DNA of 64,000 bases from Paraburkholderia ginsengiterrae (GTDB lineage: Bacteria > Pseudomonadota > Gammaproteobacteria > Burkholderiales > Burkholderiaceae). This document shows, one piece after another, positions 34,693-54,859 of the stretch; the stretch's first letter is position 1, and every line of letters starts with the position of its first letter. The stretch is taken from NCBI RefSeq assembly GCF_001645125.1, contig NZ_LXKA01000198.1, positions 1-64,000 on the forward strand, in the 5' to 3' direction. Both the position numbers and the translations under genes were made by a program. The notes beneath the pieces were generated by a model. The model did not search any database. It saw only the letters and a program-made list of their open reading frames with translations, and was not told the DNA's origin.

Positions 34693-35838
34693 TTACATCA
34701 GGCTGCGGGCGATGATCAGCTTCTGAATATGGCTCGTGCCTTCGTAGATCTTGCAGACACGCACATCGCGGCTATAGCGCTCGACCGGGAAGTCCGTCAG
34801 GTAGCCGTAACCGCCATGAATCTGGATAGCCTCCGAGCACACCTTTTCTGCAATCTCGCTCGCAAAGAGCTTGGCGATCGACGCCTCCTTCGAGCATTCG
34901 ATACCTTCCGCGCACAGACGAGCGGCGTGCAGCGAGTACTGGTACGCGATCTCGACCTGAGCGGCCATGTCCGCGAGATCGAAACTTACGCCCTGCAACT
35001 CCGCAATCGGGCGGCCATAGGCCTCGCGATCCTTCGCATACGCGACAGCAGCGTCGAGCGCAGCACGTGCGACGCCGGCCGCGATAAAGGCGATACCGAT
35101 GCGACCGTCCGACAACCCGGACATAACGAGAGAATAGCCTTCGCCTTCGGCGCCCAGCAGGTTCTCACGTGGCACGCGAAACCCTTCGAGCGAAATTGCT
35201 GCCGTGTGCGCCGTGTGCTGGCCAAGCTTGTTTTCGATGCGAGTGATCGTGTAACCCGGCTGCTTCGGGTCGATGATGAAGGTGCTCGCGCCGCGCTTGC
35301 CCGCGTCCTTGCTCGTCAGAACGAAGGCAATTGCGACACCCGCCTGGCTGCCGTTCGAGATGAACTGTTTCGCCCCGTCGAGAATGTAGTAGTCGCCGTC
35401 GCGGCGGCCAGTCGCGCGCAGCGCGGCGGTGTCAGAGCCGGCTTGCGGTTCGCTCAGCAGGAACGCGCCGATTGACTCGCCGCATGCCATCGCCGGCAAA
35501 TAGCGGCGCTTTTGCTCCTCCGTGCCGTGGATCGCGATGCACAGCGCCGTGAAGTTATGCACGTGCAGAATCGTCGCAAGGCCTGCATCGGCACCCGCGA
35601 ATTCATATTGCGCAAGGCAGAATTCGACAACGCCCGCACCCACGCCGCCATACTCTTCAGGAACGAGCATGCCAAGAAAGCCAAGCTCCGCGAGTTGCTT
35701 CAGTTCGGTATGCGGCCAGGCCGACGTGCGGTCGCGCTCCGCAGCGGTCGGCGCGATCACCTCCGCAGCGACGCGGCGCGCCGAGTCGCGAATCATGATC
35801 TGTTGCTCGGTGAGAAATACTGCGGATGTATCTGCCAT
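34693..35838 (-). CDS. Acyl-CoA dehydrogenase (homotetramer type)
   Basis: 381 residues, FAD enzyme for the first step of beta-oxidation. 'LLSEPQAGSDTAALRATG' and 'GAKQFISNGSQAGVAIAF' are FAD contacts. 'CKIYEGTSHIQKLIIARSL' has the catalytic Glu at the usual short/branched-chain position. 'IQIHGGYGYLTDFPVERYSRDVRVCKIYEGTS' pattern is like butyryl- or 2-methylbutyryl-CoA dehydrogenases. Divergent from the TetR gene, with a shared operator at 35944-35961. Part of catabolic module 1. Confidence 0.92.
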   Translation of the reverse strand: MADTSAVFLTEQQIMIRDSARRVAAEVIAPTAAERDRTSAWPHTELKQLAELGFLGMLVPEEYGGVGAGVVEFCLAQYEFAGADAGLATILHVHNFTALCIAIHGTEEQKRRYLPAMACGESIGAFLLSEPQAGSDTAALRATGRRDGDYYILDGAKQFISNGSQAGVAIAFVLTSKDAGKRGASTFIIDPKQPGYTITRIENKLGQHTAHTAAISLEGFRVPRENLLGAEGEGYSLVMSGLSDGRIGIAFIAAGVARAALDAAVAYAKDREAYGRPIAELQGVSFDLADMAAQVEIAYQYSLHAARLCAEGIECSKEASIAKLFASEIAEKVCSEAIQIHGGYGYLTDFPVERYSRDVRVCKIYEGTSHIQKLIIARSLM

Positions 35839-35943
35839 GGGTTGTCTCCGTATTCCGGGGGCGTCAATCGCCGTGCTGAATTCTCGTTCCGCAACGTCGC
35901 AGCTGCCTGTGGCGCGCTACCAATCCATGCTGCGCAACGCACT

Positions 35944-35961
35944 TTCTACTTTCGAGTAAAT
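35944..35961. promoter_or_regulatory. TetR-type operator, site A
   Basis: TTCTACT-TTCG-AGTAAAT: same layout as sites B (39297-39314) and C (40625-40642). It lies 106 bases upstream of the acyl-CoA dehydrogenase start and 175 bases upstream of the TetR start. Confidence 0.7.
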
Positions 35962-36135
35962 TTTTATACCGCGAAGTCAAATTGTCAATCTGAAACTTCC
36001 TTTCGTTGACTGAAAAGGCATTGCCCGGTAGCGGGCTGGACCGTTACCGGGCCTTCCCGGTCATGGCAAGAGCGCGATCAACATCGGTTCGACCGCGTGG
36101 TAAGATTCACTGAATCAATAATGGGATAGTCCACG

Positions 36136-36840
36136 ATGGCATCGACGGCGCGCAAATCTCCCGGCACCCGAAAATCGAAAGAGTCGTCCACACGCTGGAA
36201 AGACGCGCTACCGTCGCGCGAAGACCTGCAGCAGTTGAAGAAAACCGCCTTGATCCGCGAGGCGGGTCGAGCATTCAAGACGAAGGGGTTCCACAACACC
36301 TCGCTCGACGAAGTGGCCGAGGCGCTCAATGTCACCAAGGCAGCGCTCTACTATTACGTGAAGGGCAAGCGTGAGCTATTGTTCGAAACGCAGATGCTCG
36401 TGCTCGAAATGGGTGACGCCGCGCTGGAGGAAGGCCAGCACGGCAAGACCGGTCTGGAAAAGCTCGAGCGGACAATCGGCCGGTTCATCGTGCTGATGGC
36501 AAGGGATTTCATTTCGCACTCTTTCGTGTCCACGCTTGACGACATGCTGCCCGAGCATCAGGACATCATTCGCAAGCGCCGCCGTGCTTTCGATCTGCGT
36601 ATCAGAGAATTCGTGCAGGACGGCATCAACGACGGTTCGATCGCGCCTTGCGAGCCCAAGCTCGCCGTTGCGTGGCTGATGGGTTCAATCAACTGGATTC
36701 CTAACTGGTTCAATCCGGAAGGCGAGTACGGCCCCGAGGCAATCGCGGAGGTGTTCGTCAACTTCATATCGCACGGACTCGCAGCGGGATCCGCGAAGGT
36801 CCGCGGCCGCCCGCGCAAGTCCTCAAGTGAAGCCACCTAG
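36136..36840 (+). CDS. TetR-family transcriptional regulator
   Basis: 234 residues. Basic N-terminal extension (about 1-30), then the helix-turn-helix 'NTSLDEVAEALNVTKAALYYYVKGKRELLF' (about 55-85). The ligand domain contains 'VSTLDDMLPEHQDIIRKRRRAFD'. The C-terminus 'INWIPNWFNPEGEYGPEAIAEVFVNFISHGL' resembles regulators of lipid/CoA-ester catabolism. Three nearby promoters share one palindrome, so it is the likely repressor of module 1, with an acyl-CoA as probable inducer (inference). A short palindrome GATTCA-C-TGAATC at 36104-36116 lies near its own start. Confidence 0.9.
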   Translation: MASTARKSPGTRKSKESSTRWKDALPSREDLQQLKKTALIREAGRAFKTKGFHNTSLDEVAEALNVTKAALYYYVKGKRELLFETQMLVLEMGDAALEEGQHGKTGLEKLERTIGRFIVLMARDFISHSFVSTLDDMLPEHQDIIRKRRRAFDLRIREFVQDGINDGSIAPCEPKLAVAWLMGSINWIPNWFNPEGEYGPEAIAEVFVNFISHGLAAGSAKVRGRPRKSSSEAT

Positions 36841-37015
36841 GCATTCCATAGACAACCTTGCAGCCAGCGCGCATCCAACCACCTGCGTGCACGTGCCGGC
36901 AGCGAGCCGATTTATCCATGTCGCGCCTCCCCTTGAAAAAGCGCGAACGCGAATGCCGCGGACAATTCAAGGGAAGTCGAATTCCGCGTGCGCGTGATTT
37001 CCTTCGAGGGTCGCC

Positions 37016-38368
37016 TCAAGGCTGCCGGACGAATGGTGGCGGGAAATACTGCCCTGCCGCCACCTCGGTCGTCGGGCCATATAATCGGAACGTGAGGTTG
37101 TAAGTGGTGCCGCGCTGCGTGGGCAACCAGTTCGTTGCGGGGACGCCGTCAGGACGCGCGGGACCGAACGCGAGCGTGACGGAGCCATCCGCGTTGGGCT
37201 GCACGCGCGACTGCCGGTTTAGCAGAAAGCGGCCGAGCGGATTCGGCACCACCCTATATTGCGTCGAGTCGACTTCGGTGACCGACCAGAAATAGCGAGC
37301 GAGACTCTGCGGCAGCGCATCCTTCGGATACGTTTGTGTATAGGTCGCACTGCCGTCCAGATGCAGCATGGCGTAGTACATCACTTCATCCGGGTTATTC
37401 GCCCAGATGCCGGCGAGATCAACGACCGTCCGATCGAGGTAGTTGCTTCCGTACTGACCGACGGTCGAGGGCCGAATCCAGCCATTACCGGCCGGACCGA
37501 GCGCTTTCATCCGGCGTGCGAGCGCCGGCAATGCCTCGCGTTCGATGACGCTGTCGACCCGGGCGCGCCCCGGCGCTCCCGATTGCACTAGCGCAGCGAC
37601 CGCCCTGACCTGCGCACGAACCTCGTCCATACGCGGCGCGAGATCCGGCTGGCCGTCGAGAATTTGCGCAGCGAAGGCGAACGCCTCGACGTGCGGCAGC
37701 TGTGCATTCGTAAAGAGCGGCACCTCGATGGGCGCTTCGAGCTTCGGCTCGCCGAGCGGCGTTAAGCGGAATTCGCGCTGAAGACGCTGAGCCTGCGCCG
37801 GGTCATCGCCCAACTCGATACGCGTGAGCATCCGCAACGTCCGGACCGGCAGATCGATGCGTAATGCGCCGGCCGGTGGCGTCGCGTGTGCGCCCTTCAA
37901 ACACAGCGCGTAGCGGCCATAAGGCCGTTGCGCAAAGGTGCGCTCGTTGATATTGAGCACCGTCTCGCCCCAGCCGTCCAGCATCTGCCATGTGTAGTAG
38001 CGTCCTTCGATACGTGGGATATCGGCCAGCACGCAGGTCTTCTCGTCGAGTGCGACCCACGCTTCGGCATAGACTACGTCAAGATTTGGGTTCGCCCATT
38101 GCACGCCGCCTGGCCTGCGGTACACGACGCGGTTCCATTGGAATCCGTCTTTCTCGAAGTCAAGACGTTGCTGGCGCAAGATCAGCAACCGCCCGAGCAG
38201 ATAGTGGTAAGCGTGAACGATGTCGGCGTCGCTCACGCTGGCTCCGGCGTCCTGATCAATCGCAGCGGCCGGCGGCTGTTCAGCCGACACGCTCTTGCAA
38301 CCTCCGACGCCCGCGAGCAGGGTCAGCGCGAGCAGCATCGCCGCACCCGTGCGAAAAAGCTTGTGCAT
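37016..38368 (-). CDS. DUF1254/DUF1214 lipoprotein
   Basis: 450 residues. Lipoprotein signal 'LLALTLLAGVGGC' with Cys near residue 23. N-terminal DUF1254 region ('GRYYTWQMLDGWGETVLNINERTF') and C-terminal DUF1214 region ('FWSVTEVDSTQYRVVPNPLGRF', 'PATNWLPTQRGTTYNLTFRLYGP'). The enzymatic role of the family is not established. It is 61 bases downstream of the enoyl-CoA hydratase gene and probably in its operon, so it may act on the catabolic substrate in the envelope. A paralogue lies at 52337. Confidence 0.85.
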   Translation of the reverse strand: MHKLFRTGAAMLLALTLLAGVGGCKSVSAEQPPAAAIDQDAGASVSDADIVHAYHYLLGRLLILRQQRLDFEKDGFQWNRVVYRRPGGVQWANPNLDVVYAEAWVALDEKTCVLADIPRIEGRYYTWQMLDGWGETVLNINERTFAQRPYGRYALCLKGAHATPPAGALRIDLPVRTLRMLTRIELGDDPAQAQRLQREFRLTPLGEPKLEAPIEVPLFTNAQLPHVEAFAFAAQILDGQPDLAPRMDEVRAQVRAVAALVQSGAPGRARVDSVIEREALPALARRMKALGPAGNGWIRPSTVGQYGSNYLDRTVVDLAGIWANNPDEVMYYAMLHLDGSATYTQTYPKDALPQSLARYFWSVTEVDSTQYRVVPNPLGRFLLNRQSRVQPNADGSVTLAFGPARPDGVPATNWLPTQRGTTYNLTFRLYGPTTEVAAGQYFPPPFVRQP

Positions 38369-38429: not shown

Positions 38430-39218
38430 TTAGAGGCCGGTAAACTGGGGCGAACGTTTTTCCTGGAACGCGGCAAGTCCTTCGCGGAGGTCCTCACTGT
38501 GTTCGTGGAGCGCGATCATCAGCAGTTCCTGACGAAGCGCGACCTCGGCAGGCTGCTCGAGGCCGTCGTTCACAAGCAGCTTCATCCGGCTCAGGCCGAG
38601 CGGACTTTTGGCTGCCATCGTCTGCACAAGCGCGTCAACCCTCGCGCGAAGCTGCGCGTCCTCGACGACTTGGTTGACGAGTCCTGCCGACTCCATCGCC
38701 TCGGCCGTAACAAATTCGCCCGTGTACATCAGATACTTCGCGCGCGTCGCGCCAATCTTGCGTGGCAGGCGGACCGAGCCGCCGCCGCCGGGCAGCAACC
38801 CATAGTTCGCATGCGCGTCGCCGAACCGCGCCGACTTCCCCGCGATCACAAGATCGCAGCACAGCACCAGTTCGAGGCCGCCCGCGAGCGCCATGCCGTT
38901 CACGGCGGCAATGACAGGTCGTGGGAAGCGTTCCAGACGGTTTAGCAGAGCGAGCAGTGCGTCGAGGAACCGGCTCCCACCCGACTGGTCTCCGTCGCGC
39001 TCACCACGCACAAATTTCAGATCGGCGCCGGCGCAAAACGCACGGCCCGCTCCGGTCAGCACAACCACGCGTACATCGTCGCGTTTCGTGGCTTCGTCGA
39101 GCGCCCACTCGATTCCCCGAACCACGTCGGGAGTAATCGCATTCATCGCCGCGGGACGATTCAGTGTGATCCATAACGCGCCTTGCCGTACTTCGGCGAT
39201 AACGGGCATCTCCTGCAT
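38430..39218 (-). CDS. Enoyl-CoA hydratase/isomerase family protein
   Basis: 262 residues, crotonase fold. 'RAFCAGADLKFVRG' and 'NGMALAGGLELVLCCDLVI' supply the oxyanion hole and the first Glu. The second catalytic position is His in 'FGDAHANYGLLPGGGGSVRLPRKIG', not Glu. It may hydrate, isomerise or hydrolyse a CoA ester in module 1. Divergent from the CoA-transferase gene, with operator B between. Confidence 0.87.
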   Translation of the reverse strand: MQEMPVIAEVRQGALWITLNRPAAMNAITPDVVRGIEWALDEATKRDDVRVVVLTGAGRAFCAGADLKFVRGERDGDQSGGSRFLDALLALLNRLERFPRPVIAAVNGMALAGGLELVLCCDLVIAGKSARFGDAHANYGLLPGGGGSVRLPRKIGATRAKYLMYTGEFVTAEAMESAGLVNQVVEDAQLRARVDALVQTMAAKSPLGLSRMKLLVNDGLEQPAEVALRQELLMIALHEHSEDLREGLAAFQEKRSPQFTGL

Positions 39219-39296: not shown

Positions 39297-39314
39297 ATTA
39301 ACTCGCGAGTAGAA
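39297..39314. promoter_or_regulatory. TetR-type operator, site B
   Basis: On the minus strand TTCTACT-CGCG-AGTTAAT; the central ACTCGCGAGT is a perfect 10-base palindrome. It sits in the 256-base divergent region between the hydratase and CoA-transferase genes and could control both. Confidence 0.72.
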
Positions 39315-39474
39315 AATATGCCAATATAGCGCGTCAGCAAACCTCGGCGCGACGCATCGACAGGCCACTCGCACGCGCATTGATTGCGCGAGCCGCTGGG
39401 TCGCTACACAACCACCTCGCACGCGACCGAAGTACGCGCTCAAGCGCCAACTCCGGTCGACACAGGAGACACGC

Positions 39475-40596
39475 ATGAGTTTGCCTCTGGAGGGTGTGCG
39501 CATCCTCAGTCTTGCCGAACAGTATCCCGGCCCCTTCGCCACGCTCGTAATGGCCGACCTGGGCGCTGACGTGGTCTTGATCGAGCGGCCGCCGGCTGGC
39601 GACCCGGCCCGTCAGTTGCCCGACTTTCACGCCGCGCTCAACCGCGGCAAACGCTCGGTCGGCGTCGACCTGAAAACCGACGCAGGGCGCGCGGCGCTGC
39701 GCGAACTGATCGCTTGCGCGGACGTGCTGATGGAAGGTTTCCGCCCCGGCACGATGGCCCGCCTCGGCTTCGGCTATGACGACGTCGCGAAGCTCAATCC
39801 GCGCATCGTCTATCTGTCGATTTCAGGTTTCGGCCAGAACGGCCCGTATCGGAACCGGCCCGCGCACGACCTCTCGTATCAGGCCATTGCGGGCCTGCTG
39901 CACCGCCAAGCGGCCAGCGGCCAGATCGAAGCGCCGCCCGAACTCGCGATCGGCGACCTCTCCGCGGCCATGTTCGCCGTCACAGGCTGCCTTGCCGCAC
40001 TGCTCGAGCGCACCCGCACCGGCTTCGGCAAATGCGTGGACGTGTCGATGACGGACGGCCTCGTGTCGTGGATGAGCGTGTTCCTTTCTCCGGCGATGAA
40101 CGGCGGACGGCTCGGCATGGCTGAAATCAACGCCCAACCCGCTTACGGAGTGTTCCGCTGCGAGGACGGCCTTCTGCTGACACTGTCGATTGCGCACGAA
40201 GACTGGTTCTGGACTTCCCTATGCGAGCTTCTCGGCCTCACCGACATTGCGCAGGTGAAGAACGCGGAACGCGCTCCGCGCAAAGCGGAACTTCGCGCCC
40301 GCGTTACCGAAGCGCTCCGCCGCAAGCCTCGTGCTCAATGGGCACCGCTGCTCGACCAGGCGGGCGTGCCCTGGGGGCCGGTGAACAGCCTCGACGAAGT
40401 CGTGAATGACCCGCACTTCCGCGCGCGCGGCATGTTCCGCGAGGTCAACGAACGCGGCGGGCGTCGCGCCTGGCACGTTGCGCAGCCACTCGTCTTCAAC
40501 GGCGTGCATCCGGGACCTACGCGCGGGGTGCCTGATGTCGGCGAGCATGACGCGGAGTTGCTCGCGTGCTCCGCGAATGCGAAAAACGCCGGGTAA
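39475..40596 (+). CDS. CaiB/BaiF (class III) CoA-transferase
   Basis: 373 residues. Family N-terminus 'LEGVRILSLAEQYPGPFATLVMADLGADVVLIERP'. 'GKRSVGVDLKTDAGRAALRELI' and 'LNPRIVYLSISGFGQNGPY' bind CoA. The aspartate that carries the acyl group is expected in 'NRPAHDLSYQAIAG'. It would activate the acid substrate of module 1 using another CoA ester, or epimerise a 2-methyl branch like AMACR, a relative of the same family. AGGAG lies before the ATG. Confidence 0.9.
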   Translation: MSLPLEGVRILSLAEQYPGPFATLVMADLGADVVLIERPPAGDPARQLPDFHAALNRGKRSVGVDLKTDAGRAALRELIACADVLMEGFRPGTMARLGFGYDDVAKLNPRIVYLSISGFGQNGPYRNRPAHDLSYQAIAGLLHRQAASGQIEAPPELAIGDLSAAMFAVTGCLAALLERTRTGFGKCVDVSMTDGLVSWMSVFLSPAMNGGRLGMAEINAQPAYGVFRCEDGLLLTLSIAHEDWFWTSLCELLGLTDIAQVKNAERAPRKAELRARVTEALRRKPRAQWAPLLDQAGVPWGPVNSLDEVVNDPHFRARGMFREVNERGGRRAWHVAQPLVFNGVHPGPTRGVPDVGEHDAELLACSANAKNAG

Positions 40597-40624
40597 ACAT
40601 GAACTTCTACTCAATCGACTATAT

Positions 40625-40642
40625 TTCTACTCACAAGTAGAA
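40625..40642. promoter_or_regulatory. TetR-type operator, site C
   Basis: TTCTACT-CACA-AGTAGAA, a perfect inverted repeat with 7-base arms. It lies in the gap between CoA-transferase and thiolase, indicating a separately controlled promoter for the thiolase-SDR pair. Confidence 0.78.
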
Positions 40643-40686
40643 TTAGTCGATCGAATTGTCAATCCTTAAACAATCTGGGAACCAAC

Positions 40687-41925
40687 ATGAAGGATGTCTA
40701 TGTAGTCGGAGTCGGCATGACGCGGTTCGGCCGGCTGCTCGATCAGAGCATCAAAGCGCTGGTGCGCACCGCCACCGAAGCGGCCCTCAAGGACGCCGGC
40801 GTCGAAAAGAGCGCCGTTGAAGCCGCCTTCTATGGCAATGCATCGCAGGGCCACATGGATGGTCAGCACATGATTCGTGGTGAAATCGCGCTGCGCGACA
40901 TGGGTATCGGCGGCATTCCGGTAGTGAACGTCGAGAATGCGTGCGCGAGCGGCAGCAGTGCATTTGTGCTGGCGCTCAACCATCTGCGCTCGGGCGCCGG
41001 GGACGTTGCGCTGGCCGTGGGCGCCGAAAAAATGTTCTCGGAAGACCGTGAACGCATGTTCTCCGTGTTCGACAGCGCACTCGACGTTTCGCGCGCGAAT
41101 GAAATTCACGCCGAGTTGTTGCGTATCGGCGAAGGCATGGAAATTCCGGCTGGCTCGACCTCGTCAAAGCCCTATAGCGTCTTCATGGACGTGTACGCAG
41201 CATTTTGCCGCGCGCACATGAGACGCTTCGGCACTACACAGCGCCAGATCGCCGCCGTGTCAGCGAAGAACCATCGTCATTCCGTGCACAACCCGCTGTC
41301 ACAATACCGGGTGGCCTACACCGTGGAAGAGGTGCTGGCCGCGCCGCCCATTACCTACCCGTTCACGCTGCCAATGTGCTCGCCTGTGTCCGACGGCGCT
41401 GCGGCTGCCATCCTGTGTACAGCCGACGCGCTCAAGCGTCTGAACATCGATGCGAAGCGTGCGATCCACGTGCTGGCCTCGGTCGTCCAGAGCGGAACGG
41501 ACCGCTCCCCCCACGACATCGAGCAGCATGTCACCGCGCGGGCTTCGCGGCGCGCGTACGAGCTGGCTGGCGTCGGTCCGAAGGACGTGTCGGTAGCAGA
41601 GGTGCATGACGCAACCGCGATGGGCGAGATCGTCCAGATCGAAAATCTCGGCTTCTGCGACTTCGGCGACGGCGGCCCGATCTCTGAGCGCGGCGACACG
41701 TCAATCGGCGGCCGGATCCCGGTCAACCCGTCGGGCGGCCTGGAATCGAAGGGACACCCGGTCGGCGCGACGGGTCTCGGACAGGTGCATGAGCTCGTCA
41801 CCCAGTTGCGCGGCGAAGCAGGCCCGCGTCAGGTCGACAACGCGCGGATCGCTGTCGCAGAGAACGGCGGCGGCCTGTATGGCGTTGAGGAAGCGGTGGC
41901 CTGCATCACGATTCTGGCGCGCTGA
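40687..41925 (+). CDS. SCP2-type thiolase (acetyl-CoA acetyltransferase family)
   Basis: 412 residues. 'VVNVENACASGSSAFVLAL' carries the nucleophilic Cys, and 'NPSGGLESKGHPVGATGLGQVHEL' the active-site His. The C-terminal CxG of classical thiolases is replaced by 'AENGGG', as in the sterol-carrier-protein-X / lipid-transfer subgroup. It would release acetyl- or propionyl-CoA from a bulky or branched 3-ketoacyl-CoA. A second thiolase of this group is in module 2. Confidence 0.88.
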   Translation: MKDVYVVGVGMTRFGRLLDQSIKALVRTATEAALKDAGVEKSAVEAAFYGNASQGHMDGQHMIRGEIALRDMGIGGIPVVNVENACASGSSAFVLALNHLRSGAGDVALAVGAEKMFSEDRERMFSVFDSALDVSRANEIHAELLRIGEGMEIPAGSTSSKPYSVFMDVYAAFCRAHMRRFGTTQRQIAAVSAKNHRHSVHNPLSQYRVAYTVEEVLAAPPITYPFTLPMCSPVSDGAAAAILCTADALKRLNIDAKRAIHVLASVVQSGTDRSPHDIEQHVTARASRRAYELAGVGPKDVSVAEVHDATAMGEIVQIENLGFCDFGDGGPISERGDTSIGGRIPVNPSGGLESKGHPVGATGLGQVHELVTQLRGEAGPRQVDNARIAVAENGGGLYGVEEAVACITILAR

Positions 41926-42080: not shown

Positions 42081-42827
42081 ATGAATCTGCAAAACAAAGT
42101 TGCAATCGTCACTGGCGCAGCATCTGGCCTCGGCCTCGCCACCTGCCGGGCGCTTGCCGCAGCGGGCGCAAAAGTAGTCGGCTTCGACCTCGACGGCACG
42201 ACGCTCGAAGAAACACTCGGGCCGGATATCAAAGGCATCGCGGTCGACGTAGCCAGCGAAGGGAGTGTCAAGACAGGGATCAATGCCGTCGTACGCACGT
42301 ATGGGGCCGTGCATGTGGCGGTCAATTGCGCAGGCATTCTCGGACCAGGCAAGACCATCTCCAAAGGACAGCTTTTTCCATCCGATCTGTGGAACCGCGT
42401 GCTGTCGGTGAACCTGACCGGCACCTTCAACGTGCTCCGTCACGCAGCGCTCGCGATGACGGCCAACGAGCCGGAGGAAACCGGCGAACGCGGCGTGATT
42501 ATCAACACGGCGTCAGGCGCGGCGCGTCAGGGGCAGATGGGGCAGGCGGCATACAGCGCAAGCAAGGCCGGTGTGATCGGCATGACGATTCCTGTAGCAC
42601 GCGATCTCGCCGAGTACGGCATTCGCGTTGTATCGATAGCACCGGGCCTGTTCGAATCGGGCATGTCGGCAGGCATGCCGACGAAAGTGTCCGACACGAT
42701 CGTCGGCAAACTACTGTTCCCGCAACGTATGGGCAAGCCCGACGAATTCGCGAGACTTGTCCAGCATATCGTCGAAAACGCCTATCTGAACGCGACAACT
42801 TTCGACATCGAGTGCGGAACGCGTTAG
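42081..42827 (+). CDS. 3-hydroxyacyl-CoA dehydrogenase, HSD10-like SDR
   Basis: 248 residues. 'VAIVTGAASGLGLATCRAL' binds NAD; 'FDLDG' acid end gives NAD preference. Catalytic Ser and 'YSASKAGVIGMTIPVARDLAEYGIRV' follow, and 'SIAPGLFESGM' and 'FPQRMGKPDEFARLVQHIVENAYLNA' closely parallel human HSD17B10 (2-methyl-3-hydroxyacyl-CoA dehydrogenase). That favours a branched-chain substrate. ATG at 42081; the frame is open upstream to 41994 without a ribosome site. Confidence 0.9.
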   Translation: MNLQNKVAIVTGAASGLGLATCRALAAAGAKVVGFDLDGTTLEETLGPDIKGIAVDVASEGSVKTGINAVVRTYGAVHVAVNCAGILGPGKTISKGQLFPSDLWNRVLSVNLTGTFNVLRHAALAMTANEPEETGERGVIINTASGAARQGQMGQAAYSASKAGVIGMTIPVARDLAEYGIRVVSIAPGLFESGMSAGMPTKVSDTIVGKLLFPQRMGKPDEFARLVQHIVENAYLNATTFDIECGTR

Positions 42828-45912: not shown

Positions 45913-45924
45913 GGGGGCTTCCAT

Positions 45925-47059: not shown

Positions 47060-48259
47060 TCAAAGTTGGAACATCAGCTTGGCGACAATCCCTCGCTGCA
47101 CTTCGCTTGTCCCGCCATAAATGGTGGATGCGCGACGGAAGAACATCTCCGTGGCAATGCCCTGCGCCATCTGCTGCCACGGCAGCGGTTCCATGCCGAC
47201 AGCATGATCATGGGCAGGTAGATAAGCCACGGCGCCGTAGTCGCCCAGTGACTCGACCAGGAGCCCCGTCATGCGCTGCTGCAGATCGGTGCCCCGGATC
47301 TTCAGCAGCGAGCCCATGACGTGCGTGACGGGGCTCTGCTCCCGCTCCAGCTCGGCCACGCGATGCACCATCACTTCCAGTGCGCGCAACTCGCCCTCCA
47401 TCTGTGCCAGGCGAAGGGCAAACTCGGGCCGCTGCGCCAACGCCACACTGCCTACGAACTGGGAGGTAGCCAGCCGTTTGAGCACCTGCATATAGCGCAG
47501 CAGCGACGGCAGATCCGCCGTGGCGGCATGCTCGTTATTCAGCAGGAATTTGGTCGCCTTCCAGCCGTCGCCTTCCGCACCGATCCTGTTCCCGACCGGG
47601 ACGCGGACGTTGTCGAAATACGTTTCGTTCAGGTGATGGCAGCCATCGATGGTGATGATGGGACGCACCGTGATGCCAGGCGTCTTCATGTCCACCAGCA
47701 AAAAGCTGATACCGGCCTGTTTCTTCGCCGCGGGATCGGTACGCACCAGCAGGAATATCCAGTCCGCTTCGTGGGCATAGCTGGTCCACGTCTTCTGGCC
47801 GTTGACGACGTAGTAGTCGCCGTCGCGCACGGCTTGCGTGCGCAGCGACGCCAGATCCGAACCTGCTCCGGGCTCGGAGAAGCCCTGGCACCAGAAGCGC
47901 TCGCCACGCAGGATGGCGGGCATGTGCTCGGCCCTCTGCTCGGAACTGGCAAACGCATTCATGACCGGGCCAAGCAGGCGGTGTGCGAAGACATCCTGTT
48001 TCGGGGCTCCAAGGGCCGCACACTCTTCGTCGAAGACCTGCAATTGCGCAGCGTCCCATCCCGTGCCACCGTGCTCGCTGGTCCACGAGGGCGCACCCCA
48101 CCCATGGTCATTGAGGATGCGCTGCCATCTCGCCATCGCGTCGCACGAGGACCGCACGCCCAGCGTCTGTCCGCGCAATGACGCTGGCAGGTACTCGAGC
48201 AGGAACGCGCGCACCTCCGCGCGAAAGGCCTGCAGCCCCGCGTCCGGTTGAAAGTTCAT
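47060..48259 (-). CDS. Acyl-CoA dehydrogenase subunit (large/alpha type)
   Basis: 399 residues. 'CQGFSEPGAGSDLASLRTQAV' and 'NGQKTWTSYAHEADWIFLLVRT' are FAD/substrate motifs. The usual catalytic Glu position reads 'TIYGGTSEVQRGIVAK', with Gly. A Glu in 'RLAQMEGELRALEV', in the helix used by isovaleryl-CoA-type enzymes, may serve instead (inference). Adjacent to a second divergent subunit, so an alpha2beta2 enzyme is likely. GGGAG precedes the ATG. Confidence 0.88.
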   Translation of the reverse strand: MNFQPDAGLQAFRAEVRAFLLEYLPASLRGQTLGVRSSCDAMARWQRILNDHGWGAPSWTSEHGGTGWDAAQLQVFDEECAALGAPKQDVFAHRLLGPVMNAFASSEQRAEHMPAILRGERFWCQGFSEPGAGSDLASLRTQAVRDGDYYVVNGQKTWTSYAHEADWIFLLVRTDPAAKKQAGISFLLVDMKTPGITVRPIITIDGCHHLNETYFDNVRVPVGNRIGAEGDGWKATKFLLNNEHAATADLPSLLRYMQVLKRLATSQFVGSVALAQRPEFALRLAQMEGELRALEVMVHRVAELEREQSPVTHVMGSLLKIRGTDLQQRMTGLLVESLGDYGAVAYLPAHDHAVGMEPLPWQQMAQGIATEMFFRRASTIYGGTSEVQRGIVAKLMFQL

Positions 48260-48274: not shown

Positions 48275-49459
48275 TCAGGTTCGTTCGTATAACGTAACGA
48301 CGCAGGCGCCACCTATGCCGATGTTGTGTTGCAAAGCCAGTCGCGCACCTTCTACCTGCCGCTTTGCGGCCTTGCAGCGCAGCTGGCTGACCAACTCGTG
48401 GCATTGCGCCAGCCCGGTCGCACCGAGCGGGTGACCCTTCGAGAGTAGCCCGCCGGACGGATTGGTGACGACCTGGCCACCGTAGGTATTGTCGCCGTCG
48501 TCGACGAACTTCTCTGCGCCACCTTCCGGGCACAGCCCAAGCGCCTCATACGTAAGCAGCTCGTTTTGAGCGAAGCAGTCGTGCAACTCGACCACATCGA
48601 TGTCCTGCGGACCGACGCCGGCCTGCTCGTAGACCTTCTGCGCAGCAGTGCGAGACATGCTGAATCCCGCGACTTCGCGCATGTCTACACCGTCGAAGGC
48701 ATTTGCCCGGTCGGTTGTCATCGCTTGCGCAGCTATCCGGACATCGCGCTTCAAGCCGTGGCGGCTGGCGAAATCCTCCGAGCACAACACCGCTGCCGCC
48801 GCGCCGCAGGTCGGCGGGCACGCCATCAGGCGGGTCATGACACCGGGCCAGACCATAGGCGAGGCCATCACCTCTTCGGTGCTCACGACGTTGCGAAACA
48901 CGGCCAGCGGATTATTGGCGGCATGGCGACTCGCCTTGGCGCGAATCTTTGCGAAGGTTTCGAGCCTGGTGCCGAAGCGCTCCATATGCGCTAGCCCTGC
49001 CGACCCAAAGATACGCAGCGCCCCGGGCACCTCGCTGGCCCCCAGCTTCTCGTCGATCGCGGCGTAGAAGCGGTCGAACACCGAAGGGCGATCCTTGAAC
49101 TGCACTTCGAGCGCTCCCGGTACCATCTGGTCGAATCCCACCATCAGTATGCATTCGGCGGCGCCAGCCTCGATCGCCTGCCGCGCAAGGTATATCGCGG
49201 TAGAGCCGGTCGCACAGTTGTTGTTGACGTTGAAAACAGGAATCCCCGTCATGCCCACTTCGTACAATGCGCGCTGTCCGGCGCAGGAGTCGGCATACAT
49301 AAAGCCGGCGTAGGCGTGGTCGATCTGGTCGTAACCGACACCGGCGTCATCGAGCGCGGCAACAGCCGCCTTCGCGCCCATCTGGTAATACGCCTCACTG
49401 GCACCGGGCTTGGTGAACGGAATCATACCGACGCCGGCAACATAAACATTCTGGCTCAT
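48275..49459 (-). CDS. SCP-X-type thiolase / lipid-transfer protein
   Basis: 394 residues. 'VFNVNNNCATGSTAIYLA' has the nucleophilic Cys, 'VVELHDCFAQNELLTYEALGL' and 'NPSGGLLSKGHPLGATGLAQCHEL' the rest of the active site, as in mammalian SCPx and bacterial Ltp thiolases for branched and sterol side chains. Fifteen bases separate it from the large dehydrogenase subunit. Confidence 0.9.
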   Translation of the reverse strand: MSQNVYVAGVGMIPFTKPGASEAYYQMGAKAAVAALDDAGVGYDQIDHAYAGFMYADSCAGQRALYEVGMTGIPVFNVNNNCATGSTAIYLARQAIEAGAAECILMVGFDQMVPGALEVQFKDRPSVFDRFYAAIDEKLGASEVPGALRIFGSAGLAHMERFGTRLETFAKIRAKASRHAANNPLAVFRNVVSTEEVMASPMVWPGVMTRLMACPPTCGAAAAVLCSEDFASRHGLKRDVRIAAQAMTTDRANAFDGVDMREVAGFSMSRTAAQKVYEQAGVGPQDIDVVELHDCFAQNELLTYEALGLCPEGGAEKFVDDGDNTYGGQVVTNPSGGLLSKGHPLGATGLAQCHELVSQLRCKAAKRQVEGARLALQHNIGIGGACVVTLYERT

Positions 49460-49495: not shown

Positions 49496-51052
49496 TCACG
49501 CAACGCTGCGCGTCACGTCTTTCCAGTAGGGTTCGCGCAACGTGGCTTTGAGGACCTTGCCAGCGCCTGAGATAGGCAGTGCCTCGACGAAGGCTACGCT
49601 GGCGGGACATTTGTAAGCCGCAATCAGCGTCTTGCAGTGCGCGATCAGTTCAGCGGCCGTAAGCGTCTGACCGGGCGCGAGCACTACCACAGCGTGCACG
49701 GCCTCTCCCCACTGCACATGCGGAACCGCGATCACCGCGCAGGACGCGATGGCCGGATGCCTTGAAATTGCACTTTCGACTTCGGCCGAGTAGACGTTCT
49801 CCCCGCCGCTGACAATCATGTCCTTCATGCGGTCGGCAATGAAGAGATAGCCATCCTCGTCAAGGTATCCACCGTCGCCGGTGTAGTACCAGCCATTGCG
49901 AATCACTTCGGCCGTCTGCTCCGGCTTGTTCCAGTAGCCCTGCATCAACATGTCGCCGCGCACGACGATCTCTCCGACGGTGCCACGGGAAACTTCCTGG
50001 CCGTGTATGTCGATTATTTTGAGCTCCACGCAGTTGCCCGTGCATCCTGCCGCGGTCAATTTGCTGGGCGACGGAAGCAGCCCGGGCCGGTAGTTGGGCG
50101 GATTCACGGTGAGCGGCCCAATCTCCGTCATGCCATAGACTTGCACGAGCCCGACTCCAGGCAAGACTCGCTGCGCCCGCTCCAGCACCGACCCGGAAAT
50201 AGGCGATGCGCCATAAGCAATGGTTTTCAGGCTGCTCAGGTCATAGCGCCCCTGGCTTGCCGGATGATCGACCATCATCTGGATCATGGTCGGCACCAGC
50301 AAAGTGCTCGTCACGCGATGCGCTTCGATGGCCTTGAGAACGGCTTCCGGCTGAAAGCCGGGAATGATCGAATGCGTGTTGCCGACGATCCAGTGAGGCA
50401 GCGCCGCGCCAAAGTCCGCTACATGAAACATTGGTGCAGCATGAAGATACGTATCTCCGGCTTCGGACAGCCCCATCGATAGCAACGATAGTGCAGAGAT
50501 GCCAATACTGATATGACTGCGCATGACCCCTTTGGGAAAGCCTGTCGTGCCGCCCGTATAGAAGATGCCCAACAGGTCTTCGGCGCGCCGCACCGCGTCG
50601 TCCACCGGCTCTGTTTCACGCACCAGCGTTTCATAGTCGAGCATGCCGGCAGGCGCCTGCCCTTCTCCGCAATATATGATCTGACGCAAGCATGCAGCAT
50701 CGCGCTGGAGTTGTTCGGCTGCCTGAACAAATGCGTCGTCGACCAGCAGGATGGCGGAACCGGAGTCTTCGAGGGCGTAGACCAGTTCTGGAACTGACCA
50801 GCGGGTGTTGCACGGATTGAGCACGCCGCCACCCCAGGGAACCGCCATCAGATACTCAAGGTAACGATCGGAGTTCAGTGCCAGCATGGCCACGCGATCC
50901 CCTTCGCCCATGCCAACGCGCTGAAGGGCGCCGGCGAGGCGGGCGACGCGGTCCGCAAACTCACGAAATGTGCGCTGGCGCGAGCCAAACCGCACCGCGA
51001 CCTTCTCGGGATACTGCTGCAACGCGCGGTGCAGGTATTGGGTCAAGTACAC
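49496..51052 (-). CDS. Acyl-CoA synthetase (AMP-forming)
   Basis: 518 residues, ANL superfamily. 'GIFYTGGTTGFPKGVMRSH' is the phosphate loop, 'VYGMTEIGPL' the A5 motif, 'YYTGDGGYLDEDGYLFIADRMKDMIVSGGENVYSAEVE' contains the hinge, and 'ISGAGKVLKATLREPYW' the C-terminal lysine. It starts at GTG with GGAG upstream. First gene of module 2: it would charge the free acid with CoA. The specificity pocket cannot be judged by eye. Confidence 0.92.
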   Translation of the reverse strand: MYLTQYLHRALQQYPEKVAVRFGSRQRTFREFADRVARLAGALQRVGMGEGDRVAMLALNSDRYLEYLMAVPWGGGVLNPCNTRWSVPELVYALEDSGSAILLVDDAFVQAAEQLQRDAACLRQIIYCGEGQAPAGMLDYETLVRETEPVDDAVRRAEDLLGIFYTGGTTGFPKGVMRSHISIGISALSLLSMGLSEAGDTYLHAAPMFHVADFGAALPHWIVGNTHSIIPGFQPEAVLKAIEAHRVTSTLLVPTMIQMMVDHPASQGRYDLSSLKTIAYGASPISGSVLERAQRVLPGVGLVQVYGMTEIGPLTVNPPNYRPGLLPSPSKLTAAGCTGNCVELKIIDIHGQEVSRGTVGEIVVRGDMLMQGYWNKPEQTAEVIRNGWYYTGDGGYLDEDGYLFIADRMKDMIVSGGENVYSAEVESAISRHPAIASCAVIAVPHVQWGEAVHAVVVLAPGQTLTAAELIAHCKTLIAAYKCPASVAFVEALPISGAGKVLKATLREPYWKDVTRSVA

Positions 51053-51210: not shown

Positions 51211-52224
51211 ATGCCGACCACGCCCCCTACCCTGCCCATACTGGTTGTTCATCGCACGCTGGCAGGCGCGCGCAAGCGCGGCGCCATGTCAGACGAGGCG
51301 ATCTCCGCGCTGGTCGGCGCGGCCGGAATACCGCTGGCGCTGCTGGCGGAAAGCGGCGCGAGAATCACGGCCAAGCAATATGAAGCGCTATGCGCTCTGC
51401 TCATCGAGCAACTGGGTGATGAGAGTATTGGCTTTCTCTCCCGCCCACTACAACGGGGAAGCTTTGCGCTAATCGGCCGGTCCATGCTAGGCGCGCCCTC
51501 GCTGGACGTGGCACTGCGACGCGGCGCGCATACGTTTCGGCTGCTGCAGCATGATCTCGCCATGCACTGCGTCAAGCATGGCGAACTATCCGGATTTGCG
51601 CTGGAAGCCAGGAATTCCGAGGCCGGCCGTGAGACCTTCCTGCTTGAGATGCTCGTGCGGATATTCTGGCTGATGCTGGCCTGGTTGAACCGGGGCCGGC
51701 TGCCGATCCAACGCATCGACTTCGGATTTGAGCAGCCAGCCTATGCGGCGTACTATTCCGTGATATTTCCTGCGCCCCTGCAGTTCGATCAGCCATGCAC
51801 CGCGGTCTGGTTCGACGCCGGCGCCCTTCTGGCACCGGCACGGCGGACCGAAGACGACTTACGTGCCACGCTACGACAGGCTCCGGGTAACGTCATCCTG
51901 CCTCGGCCAGGAGAATACGCATGCAGTGACCGTGTGAAGGTCATTCTGGAGCAAAGCTCGCCAGACTGGCTCGACCTGGATGGGGTGGCCAAATGTATCC
52001 ACGTTTCGGCCAGCACCTTGCAGCGGCGGCTGGCTTTGGAAGGCACGTCATTTCAGTCATTGAAAGACGCATTGCGACGTGACCTCGCCATCGAGCGACT
52101 GACCACCGGCAAAGTGCCTGTTGCCCAATTGGCGGTCGAGCTTGGCTTTGCGGATGCCACGGCGTTCAATCGCGCATTCAAGCTTTGGACCGGCAGTACG
52201 CCAAGTTGCTATCGGCGCCGCTAA
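51211..52224 (+). CDS. AraC-family transcriptional regulator (OruR/ArgR-like)
   Basis: 337 residues. The N-terminal 'arabinose-binding' type domain (about 20-200) has 'EQLGDESIGFLSRPLQRGSFALIG' and 'LDVALRRGAHTFRLLQHDL', typical of the OruR branch. C-terminal double HTH: 'VAKCIHVSASTLQRRLALEGTSF' and 'VAQLAVELGFADATAFNRAFKLWTGSTP'. Divergent from the acyl-CoA synthetase and likely activator of module 2. A GTG at 51142 is an alternative start. Confidence 0.9.
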   Translation: MPTTPPTLPILVVHRTLAGARKRGAMSDEAISALVGAAGIPLALLAESGARITAKQYEALCALLIEQLGDESIGFLSRPLQRGSFALIGRSMLGAPSLDVALRRGAHTFRLLQHDLAMHCVKHGELSGFALEARNSEAGRETFLLEMLVRIFWLMLAWLNRGRLPIQRIDFGFEQPAYAAYYSVIFPAPLQFDQPCTAVWFDAGALLAPARRTEDDLRATLRQAPGNVILPRPGEYACSDRVKVILEQSSPDWLDLDGVAKCIHVSASTLQRRLALEGTSFQSLKDALRRDLAIERLTTGKVPVAQLAVELGFADATAFNRAFKLWTGSTPSCYRRR

Positions 52225-52336
52225 CTCCGGCCGTTCGCTGCCAGCAGTGAGTCGAGCTTTCAAAGCTTGCCATTTCCTCAAAAAGTTCCAACAATGCTCC
52301 GTCGGGCTAAAAAGCGATGACACCCCCAACTATTGA

Positions 52337-53713
52337 ATGAAAATTATGCATAACTATGTTTTTGCCCGGCGAGTGTTCGCCAGCCTTGTAGTAGCTTCCT
52401 CCGTGACTACGACAAGCATGCCGGGCGCGACCGCCGCCGTGCCACAGGAACAGACCGCGGTCGTCGCGAAGCCTGACGAGCAGACAGTATCCGACACATT
52501 TGTTTATGTTCTCGGCCGTCTGCTTGTGATCCGACAGGAGCAAATGGATCGCAAAGCGCCCGCCTTTGCCTGGAACTCGATCAAATACAACCCGCTCGGC
52601 TCGGCGGATTTCGTCAATCCGAATTTCGACGTAGCCTATCTGGAAGCGTGGATCGCGACAGACGACCATGCCGGGGTACTGTTGGAAGTCCCTGAAATCA
52701 AGGGACGCTACTACACCGCGCAGATACTCGACGAGTGGGGTGAGGTGATCGCCAACATTAACGAGCGAACGTTCCCGTCTAAACCCTACGGAAAATTCGC
52801 TCTGGTCAAACCCGGATCGAACGTGGCGATTCCGCCCGACGCGGCACGTATAGAACTTCATTCGAGCAAAGCGAAGCTGCTTGCACGAGTGGAGATAAAA
52901 GGTGATCGCGATGGCGCACTCGCACTACAGAAACAGTTCAAGCTGACGCCTTTGGGCAATATCGCCGTGTCCACGGCGCCAAACGTCCCCGATTTCGACA
53001 ACGCGAAACTGTTGGGCGCCGAAGCGTTTGACAATCTGGACGCGGTGTTCTCGAGCGCACTGGACGTATCGCCTGTTGCCGCGCGAATGCAGCAGCAGGC
53101 CCGTTACGTTGCCAGCTATGCCGCGTCGAGCCCGCAAGCACGCGCCGAAATTGACCGGCTCCTGCGCGACAAGATCGACCCCGACTTCGTCCAGAACGCC
53201 CTTGCGAGGAGCGGGCCCATTCACAATCATTGGGTTGGCGGCGCGCCAACCGGTAACTACGGCAGCAACTACTCGCTTCGCACCGTTGCCAATTACGCGG
53301 GTATCTGGGCGAACGTGACCGATGAGGTGATCTACTTTGTTCCAGCAGGCGACGCAAACAATCAACCACTGGACGGCAGCAAAAGTTACATCATGCGCTT
53401 CCCTGCCGACAGACTGCCGTCCAGTGTTGTCAACGGTTACTGGTCGGTGATTCTGGTCGGCGTTCCAGATTATCGGGTTGTACCTAATTCGCTGAATCGC
53501 TTCAATTTCAACAGCTATTCCAACCTGACGAAAGAGCGCGACGGTTCGCTGACAATCGCCATTGGGCCGAAACCAGTCAAGGGCGTTCCGGAAACGAACT
53601 GGCTACCTACCGATCCTGGCAAGCGCTTGTCGTTGACATTCAGAACCTACGTGCCGAAGGACATAGTCAAGCAAGGTAAATGGGCACCGCCTGCCGTTAC
53701 CGAAGTGCAGTGA
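52337..53713 (+). CDS. DUF1254/DUF1214 secreted protein
   Basis: 458 residues. Signal peptide ('FASLVVASSVTTTSMPGATAAV', no lipobox). DUF1254 region 'GRYYTAQILDEWGEVIANINERTF' and DUF1214 region 'YWSVILVGVPDYRVVPNSLNRF', 'ETNWLPTDPGKRLSLTFRTYVP'. A clear paralogue of the lipoprotein at 37016 but exported rather than lipidated. Start ATG at 52337 lacks a good ribosome site; ATG at 52346 is possible. Confidence 0.85.
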   Translation: MKIMHNYVFARRVFASLVVASSVTTTSMPGATAAVPQEQTAVVAKPDEQTVSDTFVYVLGRLLVIRQEQMDRKAPAFAWNSIKYNPLGSADFVNPNFDVAYLEAWIATDDHAGVLLEVPEIKGRYYTAQILDEWGEVIANINERTFPSKPYGKFALVKPGSNVAIPPDAARIELHSSKAKLLARVEIKGDRDGALALQKQFKLTPLGNIAVSTAPNVPDFDNAKLLGAEAFDNLDAVFSSALDVSPVAARMQQQARYVASYAASSPQARAEIDRLLRDKIDPDFVQNALARSGPIHNHWVGGAPTGNYGSNYSLRTVANYAGIWANVTDEVIYFVPAGDANNQPLDGSKSYIMRFPADRLPSSVVNGYWSVILVGVPDYRVVPNSLNRFNFNSYSNLTKERDGSLTIAIGPKPVKGVPETNWLPTDPGKRLSLTFRTYVPKDIVKQGKWAPPAVTEVQ

Positions 53714-53896
53714 TGCATTCCCGCCGCGAAATGCGGCGTCCACATAGAACGACCTGAATGAGGAAATTCCCAGAGGCGCAGCCTGCGAGTTGAGCAACTA
53801 CGGCGGTTGTGCATCAATTGGACTGGATTGCGCGCCTATGCAAGCGATGGACAGGTTCCGACCTGACTGTCGCTTGCGATGATCAATCTGAAAACA

Positions 53897-54859
53897 TCAG
53901 AAAGCCACGGTTGCTGTTGCCATCACTGTCGACGTGCTCGAAAGCCGGTTCTTGCTACTCACGGTTGGAACCCAGCGCAGGGTCATGCTGAGCGGGGTCT
54001 TTTTGATCTTGGTGTCGTAAGTCAAGATCGGACCGATCGACCAGTCAAAGCCCCGAAAGCCATTGAGCTTGTCCGCCGTAGGCCCGCTATCATTACCGAT
54101 CTGCTGGACCGTGCCGACGATCAGGCCCGCGCCAACCCCGTTGCCGAAGCGCTTCAGCGCCATCATGTCCAGCGTGAAAAGTGGGGCGTTCTGGTAGTCA
54201 GTCGCCGAATTGCGTGTGTAGAACTGCACGCCGGCGGTAACGTCGAATTCCATCCCAATCGACGGCACGATTTTGGTATAGGACACCGTAGGAATAAACG
54301 TCCAGTTGTTCAGGCTGACGTTGGCGAGGTTGCCCGGATCGTACTTACCAGTCGGCGCCCAGACGTTGACGCTAAAAGATATGTGCTCGGTCTTCGAAAA
54401 ATGATAGCCGGCAATTAGTGGTGTGAAGGTCAAATCGAACAGACCGGACGCATCCTGCCTGACGCTTCCTGTCCGGTTGCCGACTCCAAGTGCCGCGCTA
54501 ACGCTGGTCCAGGCATACGGGAGCGTGACGCTCGACGCGAAGTTCCATGGTCCAGGGCCGGTGTCCCAGACCTTCAGCAAGGTTGCCAGAGTGAACGAGA
54601 TCTGCCCGTCGAGTCCTAGCGTAGTCTTCCCGCCAATGGGTACCGGGCGTCCCGCACTGATAGAGCCGTCGTAGTAGATCTCGGCCAGATTCACGAACCA
54701 CCCTGGTTCCGGCGGTACGACACCCACGTCCGGTATCACACTCGTACCGGAGATGGGGCGGCCCAATGCACCTTCGGTGCCGTGTGCGGCGAACGGCAAT
54801 CCCAGCGTCAATATGAGAACGGAAGCACCAACGATTCGCTTAAGCACTATCAGCACCAT
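53897..54859 (-). CDS. SphA/MetA-pathway phenol-degradation family outer-membrane protein
   Basis: 320 residues. Signal peptide 'LGLPFAAHG'. The body shows alternating beta strands, e.g. 'FTPLIAGYHFSKTEHISFSVNVWAPTGKYDPGNLANVSLNNW', as in the family 'protein involved in meta-pathway of phenol degradation', which forms outer-membrane barrels next to catabolic operons. It ends in a beta strand with Phe ('STVMATATVAF'). Probably the island's hydrophobic-substrate channel. Confidence 0.82.
   Translation of the reverse strand: MVLIVLKRIVGASVLILTLGLPFAAHGTEGALGRPISGTSVIPDVGVVPPEPGWFVNLAEIYYDGSISAGRPVPIGGKTTLGLDGQISFTLATLLKVWDTGPGPWNFASSVTLPYAWTSVSAALGVGNRTGSVRQDASGLFDLTFTPLIAGYHFSKTEHISFSVNVWAPTGKYDPGNLANVSLNNWTFIPTVSYTKIVPSIGMEFDVTAGVQFYTRNSATDYQNAPLFTLDMMALKRFGNGVGAGLIVGTVQQIGNDSGPTADKLNGFRGFDWSIGPILTYDTKIKKTPLSMTLRWVPTVSSKNRLSSTSTVMATATVAF

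Follow-up and report, generated by a model that had tools for sequence, protein, structure and literature searches.

Two beta-oxidation modules paired in a tRNA-associated island of Paraburkholderia ginsengiterrae suggest a bacterial counterpart of peroxisomal branched-acid oxidation

The 64,000 nucleotide stretch of Paraburkholderia ginsengiterrae DNA analyzed here (contig NZ_LXKA01000198.1, positions 1 to 64,000; 'the window') contains an inserted block of about 20.7 kb that carries two sets of beta-oxidation genes (Table 1). The first set, module 1, consists of an acyl-CoA dehydrogenase (ACAD1), a TetR regulator, a crotonase, a family-III CoA-transferase/racemase protein, an SCP2-like thiolase (THIOL1), an HSD10-like short-chain dehydrogenase/reductase (SDR1) and a porin. 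The second, module 2, consists of an AMP-forming acyl-CoA ligase (LIG), two dehydrogenase subunits (ACAD_L and ACAD_S), a MaoC-type hydratase, an MFE-2-like short-chain dehydrogenase/reductase (SDR2), an SCPx thiolase (THIOL2) and an AraC regulator. The block also contains two DUF1254/DUF1214 proteins, whose Pfam domains are of unknown function and which are present in all six islands described below, and one PF13557 outer-membrane protein. An earlier note on this DNA had listed both modules in this content and order, and the genes are present as it described them. Our analysis suggests that the two modules probably form a single catabolic pathway for a branched acid.

The left edge of the block is a tRNA-Lys gene, and the genes on its right are nearly contiguous with those on its left in close relatives. 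When the congener G049 (L203) is compared with the window, the alignment ends at about 34418, seven bases past the tRNA, and restarts at about 55126, so that about 20.7 kb have been inserted; between these ends G049 has about 0.23 kb of non-aligning DNA. None of the 12 congeners whose flank was read has the block at this site. In three of them (L202, L203 and L205) ybgF and the small right-hand open reading frame lie within about 1.5 kb of each other, and the others have a wider gap or a right flank beyond 20 kb. The block was rightly called accessory, and an insertion beside a tRNA gene at a site that is empty in relatives is characteristic of a tRNA-associated genomic island. In P. silviterrae (G085), the island and ybgF are on separate contigs, which indicates that the cluster has moved. 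No integrase was found among the block genes in Pfam scans of the island proteins, and no exact repeat of 14 or more bases from the tRNA and the 109 bases that follow it occurs elsewhere in the window, fainter repeats being possible. The flanks are formed by ybgF, which encodes TolA-binding domains, on the left, and by the small open reading frame, an MscS-type channel and, beyond it, genes read as dedA and mutL on the right. The distance from ybgF and the tRNA-Lys gene to mscS, dedA or mutL varies in L204 and L206-L213, from a few kb to more than the 20 kb read; the site may therefore be an insertion hotspot.

The genus sample comprised 145 congeneric genomes, including that of the window (G000). 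A close THIOL1 (at least 84% identity) occurs in six of them, the next best match being 68%: G000, G062, P. silviterrae (G085), Paraburkholderia sp. BL25I1N1 (G096), Paraburkholderia sp. BL9I2N2 (G100) and P. tagetis (G134). In each of the six, THIOL2 lies no more than about 20 kb from THIOL1 on the same contig, and in this island type the two modules occur as a pair. They thus co-occur outside the window too, as the proposal of the earlier note implied. The identity of THIOL2 to the window copy is 73-76% in four islands, and 68% and 80% for the two pieces found in G062; rows for G110, G019 and G081 (18-40%), most likely read in the wrong strand or frame, were left out. Looser paired clusters (THIOL1 about 60%, THIOL2 about 70%) are found in other congeners, forming a set of 13 genomes with relatives of both thiolases within about 25 kb; G131, whose thiolases are incomplete, is not counted among them. 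A Caballeronia grimmiae plasmid has such a cluster too, together with further beta-oxidation genes. Beyond the genus, we considered the best 80 of 245 loci around THIOL1 relatives (67-95%), with flanks of up to 10 kb; the family-III protein is present in 58 of these 80 (46 distinct sequences). In Acidovorax sp. 210-6, a whole module 2 lies no more than 10 kb from an incomplete module 1 (L117), which consists of THIOL1, SDR1, ACAD1 and a 35% crotonase. No description of this cluster was found in the literature searched, which covered few subscription papers.

Two side observations concern module 1 elsewhere. The THIOL1 sequences of Bordetella petrii BT 1 9.2 and Cupriavidus pauculus CCUG 12507 (L098 and L099) do not differ, which suggests a recent transfer of module 1 between families. 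On plasmid pDC01 of Rhizorhabdus wittichii DC-6, which is typed as conjugative, a module-1-like set (L166, 5423-14338) adjoins a maleylacetate reductase and is possibly for branched ring-cleavage products.

The ligases of the six islands bear directly on whether the modules serve one acid or two. Only the module 1 ligase, encoded between THIOL1 and SDR1, is intact in G100, G096 and G134; only the module 2 ligase is intact in G000 and G062, which have none between THIOL1 and SDR1; and G085 has both. Exactly one of the two module ligases is therefore intact in five of the six islands, and none of the six lacks both. Remnants of the module 2 ligase (54 carboxy-terminal and 56 amino-terminal residues, 63-64% identity) persist in G100 and G096, 35 bases before THIOL2. 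Ligase identities were left out for islands without the ligase in question, where unlike ligases had been compared. If the modules served two different acids, each would require an activating enzyme of its own, unless ligases elsewhere took over; yet the ligase has been lost from either module. This is a good argument for one pathway, though not proof of it. A separate observation is that contig C336 of G000 (L200, 7488-17006) encodes a paralogue of THIOL1 (59%) next to the nearest relative (42%) of the ligase that is missing from module 1.

The layout and ancestry of the modules provide further evidence. Module 2 of G100, G096 and G134 has no AraC and lies about 278, 392 and 109 bases, respectively, behind ACAD1 in the same orientation; in G085 and G062 other genes separate the two modules. 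The closest relatives of module 1 in the window are those of G100 and G096, with 84-95% identity over ACAD1, TetR, crotonase, the racemase-type protein, THIOL1 and SDR1, and the window groups with these two genomes in the THIOL1 tree (support 99/96). The five module 2 enzymes of the window, however, are only 63-75% identical to those of G100 and G096, and in the THIOL2 tree the window groups with Acidovorax sp. 210-6 (support 96/97). A THIOL2 tree in which five islands were constrained together was rejected with a p-AU of 0.012. This value is indicative: the grouping was chosen with the identities already known, it was tested on a single gene, and the branches leading to the window and to Acidovorax are rather long. 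The sixth island, G062, with its thiolase in two pieces, had been left out of this test by the length filter; the identity comparison used one piece. Since the module trees disagree while the pair remains, module 2 of the window is of other origin, and the pairing has outlived the exchange. As an aside, G100 and G096 share only 64-68% identity with G085, G062 and G134 in ACAD_S and MaoC but 81-91% in THIOL2 and ACAD_L, so that module 2 of G100 and G096 itself looks mosaic.

A palindromic motif, approximately TTTACTC-NN-GAGTAGAAA, occurs at three intergenic sites of module 1 in the window: between ACAD1 and TetR, between crotonase and the racemase-type gene, and between the latter and THIOL1. 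With up to three mismatches allowed, the window has four matches (the third site being counted on both strands) against 0.16 expected, and none of 100 shuffles reached four. Because the first two sites served to define the pattern, the independent support comes from the third site and from the other islands: the same three places carry the motif in all six islands at up to three mismatches, and elsewhere in the stretches read it matches just once, in the G062 flank, with three mismatches. With one mismatch the motif is found in four of the 80 best loci, all of them Paraburkholderia islands already counted. No match with up to three mismatches was found between LIG and AraC in the window. The presence of the motif at module 1 and its absence between LIG and AraC suggest that module 1 is probably a TetR regulon, TetR being the predicted ligand of these candidate operators, and that module 2 in the window probably answers to AraC. 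Separate regulation of the modules, as proposed in the earlier note, is in this sense supported for the window. In G100, G096 and G134, where the motif lies upstream of ACAD1 and ACAD1 precedes module 2, module 2 may be under TetR.

Of particular interest is the family-III protein of module 1, which had been taken for a CoA-transferase. Its best sequence match is the Mycobacterium tuberculosis racemase MCR (186.6 bits), with human SUGCT near (179.4 bits). H131, D161 and E242 align with H126, D156 and E241 of MCR, are invariant in 23 of 23 rows, and the His and Asp are kept in all 58 loci that contain the gene. H126 and E241 have a catalytic role in MCR, and H126A and E241A are named as mutants in PDB titles. 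The Escherichia coli family-III proteins Frc, YfdE and CaiB, used as a control, carry Tyr in place of the His and, respectively, Gln, Asn and Gly in place of the Glu; the island protein keeps the Asp of this family and has His instead of Tyr. We consider it likely, judging from these residues, that the protein is of the racemase type.

It is unlikely, in our view, that the protein is instead a real CoA-transferase, with module 1 activating a dicarboxylic acid from succinyl-CoA and module 2 being separate or following. Such a route would resemble that of the bbs operon of anaerobic toluene degradation, which, like module 1, combines a family-III protein, a dehydrogenase, a crotonase, a short-chain dehydrogenase/reductase and a thiolase; THIOL1 is related to the bbs thiolase BbsB (223.8 bits, below the cut-off of 750). 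A Foldseek search with the model also places SUGCT and YfdW first and MCR tenth, the loop of H131 being modelled at low confidence. However, the island has a single family-III protein, with the His, Asp and Glu of a racemase, and the benzylsuccinate CoA-transferase chains score 115.7 and 103.9 bits, compared with 186.6 for MCR. An AMP ligase is present in 52 of the 58 loci that have the family-III gene and a PaaK-like ligase in one more, the five ligase-free loci being contig pieces of 4.2-13.6 kb. Furthermore, no DUF35 domain was found in the island, and two of the island genomes have no DUF35 match. A CoA-transferase as acid activator, and a bbs-like dicarboxylate route as the principal explanation, were therefore rejected, the fold ranking notwithstanding. 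Together with the single intact ligase in five of the six islands, these results leave the idea that each module brings its own means of activating an acid without support. The annotation 'CoA transferase' provides no test, since three of five Phaeobacter and Rhizorhabdus plasmid proteins so annotated have the His; the other two have Tyr or Phe.

The two thiolases differ in their active sites. THIOL2 has the complete SCP2-thiolase signature (CxS nucleophile, HDCF and GHP), HDCF being kept in all 46 rows (36 distinct); it matches zebrafish SCP2-thiolase with 440.7 bits. THIOL1 keeps the nucleophile Cys and GHP, and has HDA[TS] in 114 of 114 rows (99 distinct), so that the second catalytic cysteine is missing; nor does any of the 113 rows that reach the carboxy-terminal loop have a cysteine there. 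The nearest folds of THIOL1 are zebrafish SCP2-thiolase, an archaeal acetoacetyl-CoA thiolase and BbsB (model pLDDT 78). The SCP2-type thiolase proposed for module 1 is therefore SCP2-like, but it lacks the HDCF cysteine of SCP2-thiolases. In the portions of the literature available to us, the acid/base cysteine of thiolases comes from CxG or, in SCP2-thiolases, from HDCF (PMC7682436, PMC6790690). Likewise, in the available part of PMC12329534, the Sal/Ltp2 steroid aldolases are distinguished by a YDxF/YDCY motif and a Gly at the nucleophile position (CtSal). Such aldolases also have a DUF35 partner. As measured by these traits, a Sal/Ltp2-type aldolase was ruled out, since both island thiolases have HDxx and a Cys nucleophile and the YDxF motif is missing. 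Pfam scans of the island proteins contain no DUF35, the G100 and G134 genomes (two of the six) have no match, and the one match in the genome of the window is on another contig; THIOL1, by its genomic company, seems not to need such a partner. A bolder and rather doubtful extension is that THIOL1 defines a widespread class of SCP2-like thiolases with one cysteine, which would cleave alpha-branched 3-ketoacyl-CoA without a CxG or HDCF cysteine or DUF35, in a portable two-stroke pathway in which, with the racemase and an exchangeable SCPx round, propionyl- or butyryl-CoA and plain units would be removed from one acid.

The remaining enzymes suggest how the two rounds may differ. The first four PDB matches of SDR2 are 2et6 (which we take to be yeast MFE-2), 1gz6, 1zbq and 3oml, and place it close to MFE-2/HSD17B4. 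The family memberships imply that module 2, with MaoC and the MFE-2-type enzyme, would proceed via (3R)-hydroxyacyl-CoA, and module 1, with the crotonase and the HSD10-type enzyme, via (3S)-hydroxyacyl-CoA. The best models of ACAD_L and ACAD_S are pimC_large and pimD_small of pimeloyl-CoA dehydrogenase, although their scores (355 of 624 and 263 of 653 bits) fall well short of the curated cut-offs.

The peroxisomal branched-chain pathway uses AMACR, MFE-2/HSD17B4 and SCPx, and the island resembles it in its racemase-type protein, its MFE-2-type dehydrogenase with MaoC, and its SCPx thiolase with CxS, HDCF and GHP. Unlike that pathway, it has separate genes, uses acyl-CoA dehydrogenases where peroxisomes have oxidases, and adds a (3S)-type round that has an unusual thiolase of its own; the SCP2 lipid-carrier domain was not found in Pfam scans of the island proteins. 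On balance, we think it somewhat probable that the island encodes one catabolic pathway made up of two beta-oxidation rounds that can be exchanged, and that this pathway is a bacterial counterpart to the way in which peroxisomes oxidize 2-alkyl-branched acids. In such a pathway the acid would enter through the porin and the outer-membrane proteins, LIG would form the CoA ester, and the racemase-type protein would invert the alpha-alkyl center so that both stereoisomers become usable. One round would run through ACAD1, crotonase, SDR1 and THIOL1, and the other through ACAD_L/ACAD_S, MaoC, SDR2 and THIOL2, module 1 being controlled by TetR through the three operators and module 2 by AraC. Consecutive rounds on one bulky branched acid, as the earlier note envisaged, thus remain the best reading, for reasons of the pairing in all six islands, the ligase loss and the exchange; the reason it had given, separate activation by each module, is not supported.

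Several observations weigh against a single pathway. The modules of the window have different regulators and share no motif. Outside these islands, most module 1 loci have no THIOL2 in flanks of up to 10 kb (nine of the 80 best loci do), and module 2 thiolases also occur in congeners that lack a close module 1; the modules can therefore be separated, and either can function alone. In Acidovorax, the racemase-type gene is missing from stretch L117, and the same strain has a fuller module 1 elsewhere (L091). Ligases elsewhere could serve the pathway, since the genome of the window has 31 AMP ligase matches, and the G062 stretch encodes a further, distant AMP-binding-like protein (26%). Without a second catalytic cysteine, thiolysis by THIOL1 is not assured. 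The Foldseek ranking and the His in plasmid proteins annotated as transferases, given above, count on the same side. The different regulators without a shared motif, the separate occurrence of each module and the many other ligases would be accommodated by two independent pathways, one acid per module, that are neighbors since such loci collect catabolic genes, as would the disagreement of the module trees and the genes that lie between the modules in G085 and G062. We give this explanation an appreciable but minor chance: the modules are co-located in all six islands, in G085 at a different genomic place, the ligase has been lost from either module, and module 2 stands behind ACAD1 in three islands.

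The substrate may be narrowed to a class. No substrate-naming equivalog is above its cut-off among the matches listed for the island proteins, which again counts against the one-pathway reading. The most useful lead is Acidovorax sp. 210-6, the holder of the sister to module 2 of the window, which grows on 2-ethyl-1-hexanol (PMC8269228); a point on the opposing side is that the available part of PMC8269228 ties no gene of these modules to that growth. The corresponding acid, 2-ethylhexanoate, has an alpha branch and a chiral center, which a racemase would require. One branched round would be enough for it, however, and the second module would be left unexplained; a longer or bulkier 2-alkyl-branched acid would fit better, and the substrate is predicted to be bulky and 2-methyl or 2-ethyl branched.

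A steroid origin of the acid, in which the island would strip a sterol or bile acid side chain and ring genes elsewhere would finish the molecule, appears very unlikely. The closest solved structures of ACAD_L are 4x28_A, presumably the steroid enzyme ChsE4, and Tcur3483, and Tcur3481 is second for ACAD_S; ChsE4-ChsE5 is an alpha2-beta2 assembly that acts on steroid side chains. SCPx and MFE-2 presumably act on bile-acid precursors as well. Unlike the actinobacterial sterol systems, however, the island was found to have no aldolase/DUF35 pair, and it shows no link to KshA across the genus. Strong KshA matches (E < 1e-50) occur in 28 of the 145 genomes (52 pass the family cut-off if weak matches are counted), in three of the six island genomes and in one of the 13 looser pairs, which is no significant association (Fisher p 0.086 and 0.46). 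G100, G096 and G134 have no strong match to KshA or HsaA. With KshA unlinked and no strong ring-gene match in three island genomes, the steroid side chain was rejected as the principal explanation. The genome of the window itself has, on contig C328 (L198, about 2.3-15.6 kb), an HsaA-like gene (386.6 bits, cut-off 450) and genes read as KstD-, KshB- and LuxR-type, and on the same contig a full-length KshA_C match (C328:246403-247005), so that C328 carries a probable steroid or polycyclic ring cluster; the KshA and HsaA-like genes count in favor of the steroid explanation.

A terpenoid route of the atu type was also considered and is kept as a mere hint, the island having no such gene. AtuA (PF07287, which we take to be the DUF1446 family) is above its cut-off in five of the six island genomes, and none of the listed places is in the island neighborhood. 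The hint comes from a plasmid of Phaeobacter sp. G2 from an algal culture (L163 and L164), where homologues of THIOL1 and THIOL2 have neighbors with the annotations methylcrotonoyl-CoA carboxylase, HMG-CoA lyase and DUF1446, an isoprenoid-like context. Elsewhere in the window, a ZMP/ZTP riboswitch (62.9 bits) lies on the minus strand at 27456-27564.

Table 1. Features of the island and its left edge, in window coordinates
Feature	Position	Strand	Basis or remark
tRNA-Lys (TTT), left edge of the block	34336..34411	+	block missing beside it in G049 and G055
ACAD1, module 1 acyl-CoA dehydrogenase	34693..35838	-	PF02771/02770/00441; 85-95% identity to the other five islands
Candidate TetR operator copy 1, between ACAD1 and TetR	35943..35960	-	motif
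TetR-family regulator, module 1	36136..36840	+	PF00440, PF17932
DUF1254/DUF1214 protein, lipoprotein-like leader, start codon uncertain	37016..38368	-	PF06863, PF06742; weak PDB match VPA0735; has what we take to be a lipobox
Crotonase-type enoyl-CoA hydratase, module 1	38430..39218	-	PF00378; PDB crotonases
Candidate TetR operator copy 2	39298..39315	+	motif
Family-III CoA-transferase fold protein, probably alpha-methylacyl-CoA racemase-type	39475..40596	+	H131, D161, E242; fold comparison favors transferases
Candidate TetR operator copy 3, palindrome	40624..40643	.	motif
THIOL1, SCP2-like thiolase, one catalytic cysteine (HDAT replaces HDCF)	40687..41925	+	motif and family matches
SDR1, HSD10-like 3-hydroxyacyl-CoA dehydrogenase	42081..42827	+	search from 42084
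Gram-negative porin	43082..44203	+	PF13609; in six of six islands
SDR2, MFE-2/HSD17B4-type (3R)-hydroxyacyl-CoA dehydrogenase	44532..45425	-	search with 44532-45419
MaoC-type hydratase	45460..45924	-	PF01575; PDB Rv0130
ACAD_S, small dehydrogenase subunit	45925..47043	-	family and PDB matches
ACAD_L, large dehydrogenase subunit	47060..48259	-	best PDB matches 4x28_A and Tcur3483
THIOL2, canonical SCPx-type thiolase (CxS, HDCF, GHP)	48275..49459	-	NF006102 above cut-off
LIG, AMP-forming acyl-CoA ligase, sole ligase seen in this island	49496..51052	-	PF00501; NF004837 above cut-off
AraC-family regulator, module 2, start uncertain	51211..52224	+	PF12625, PF12833
Second DUF1254/DUF1214 protein	52337..53713	+	Pfam scan
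PF13557 (Phenol_MetA_deg) outer-membrane protein, 'SphA-like' in the earlier note	53897..54859	-	Pfam scan

The analysis corrects a naming trap, in that the family-III protein had been called a CoA-transferase, and it points to a possible one-cysteine thiolase. If the one-pathway reading is true, the loss of the ligase from either module and the exchange of one module while the pair persists would be an evolutionary signature of a single pathway, and the substrate would belong to a testable class that includes plasticizer-derived 2-ethylhexanoate. Bacteria would then own a mobile and regulated equivalent of the machinery with which peroxisomes handle 2-alkyl-branched acids.

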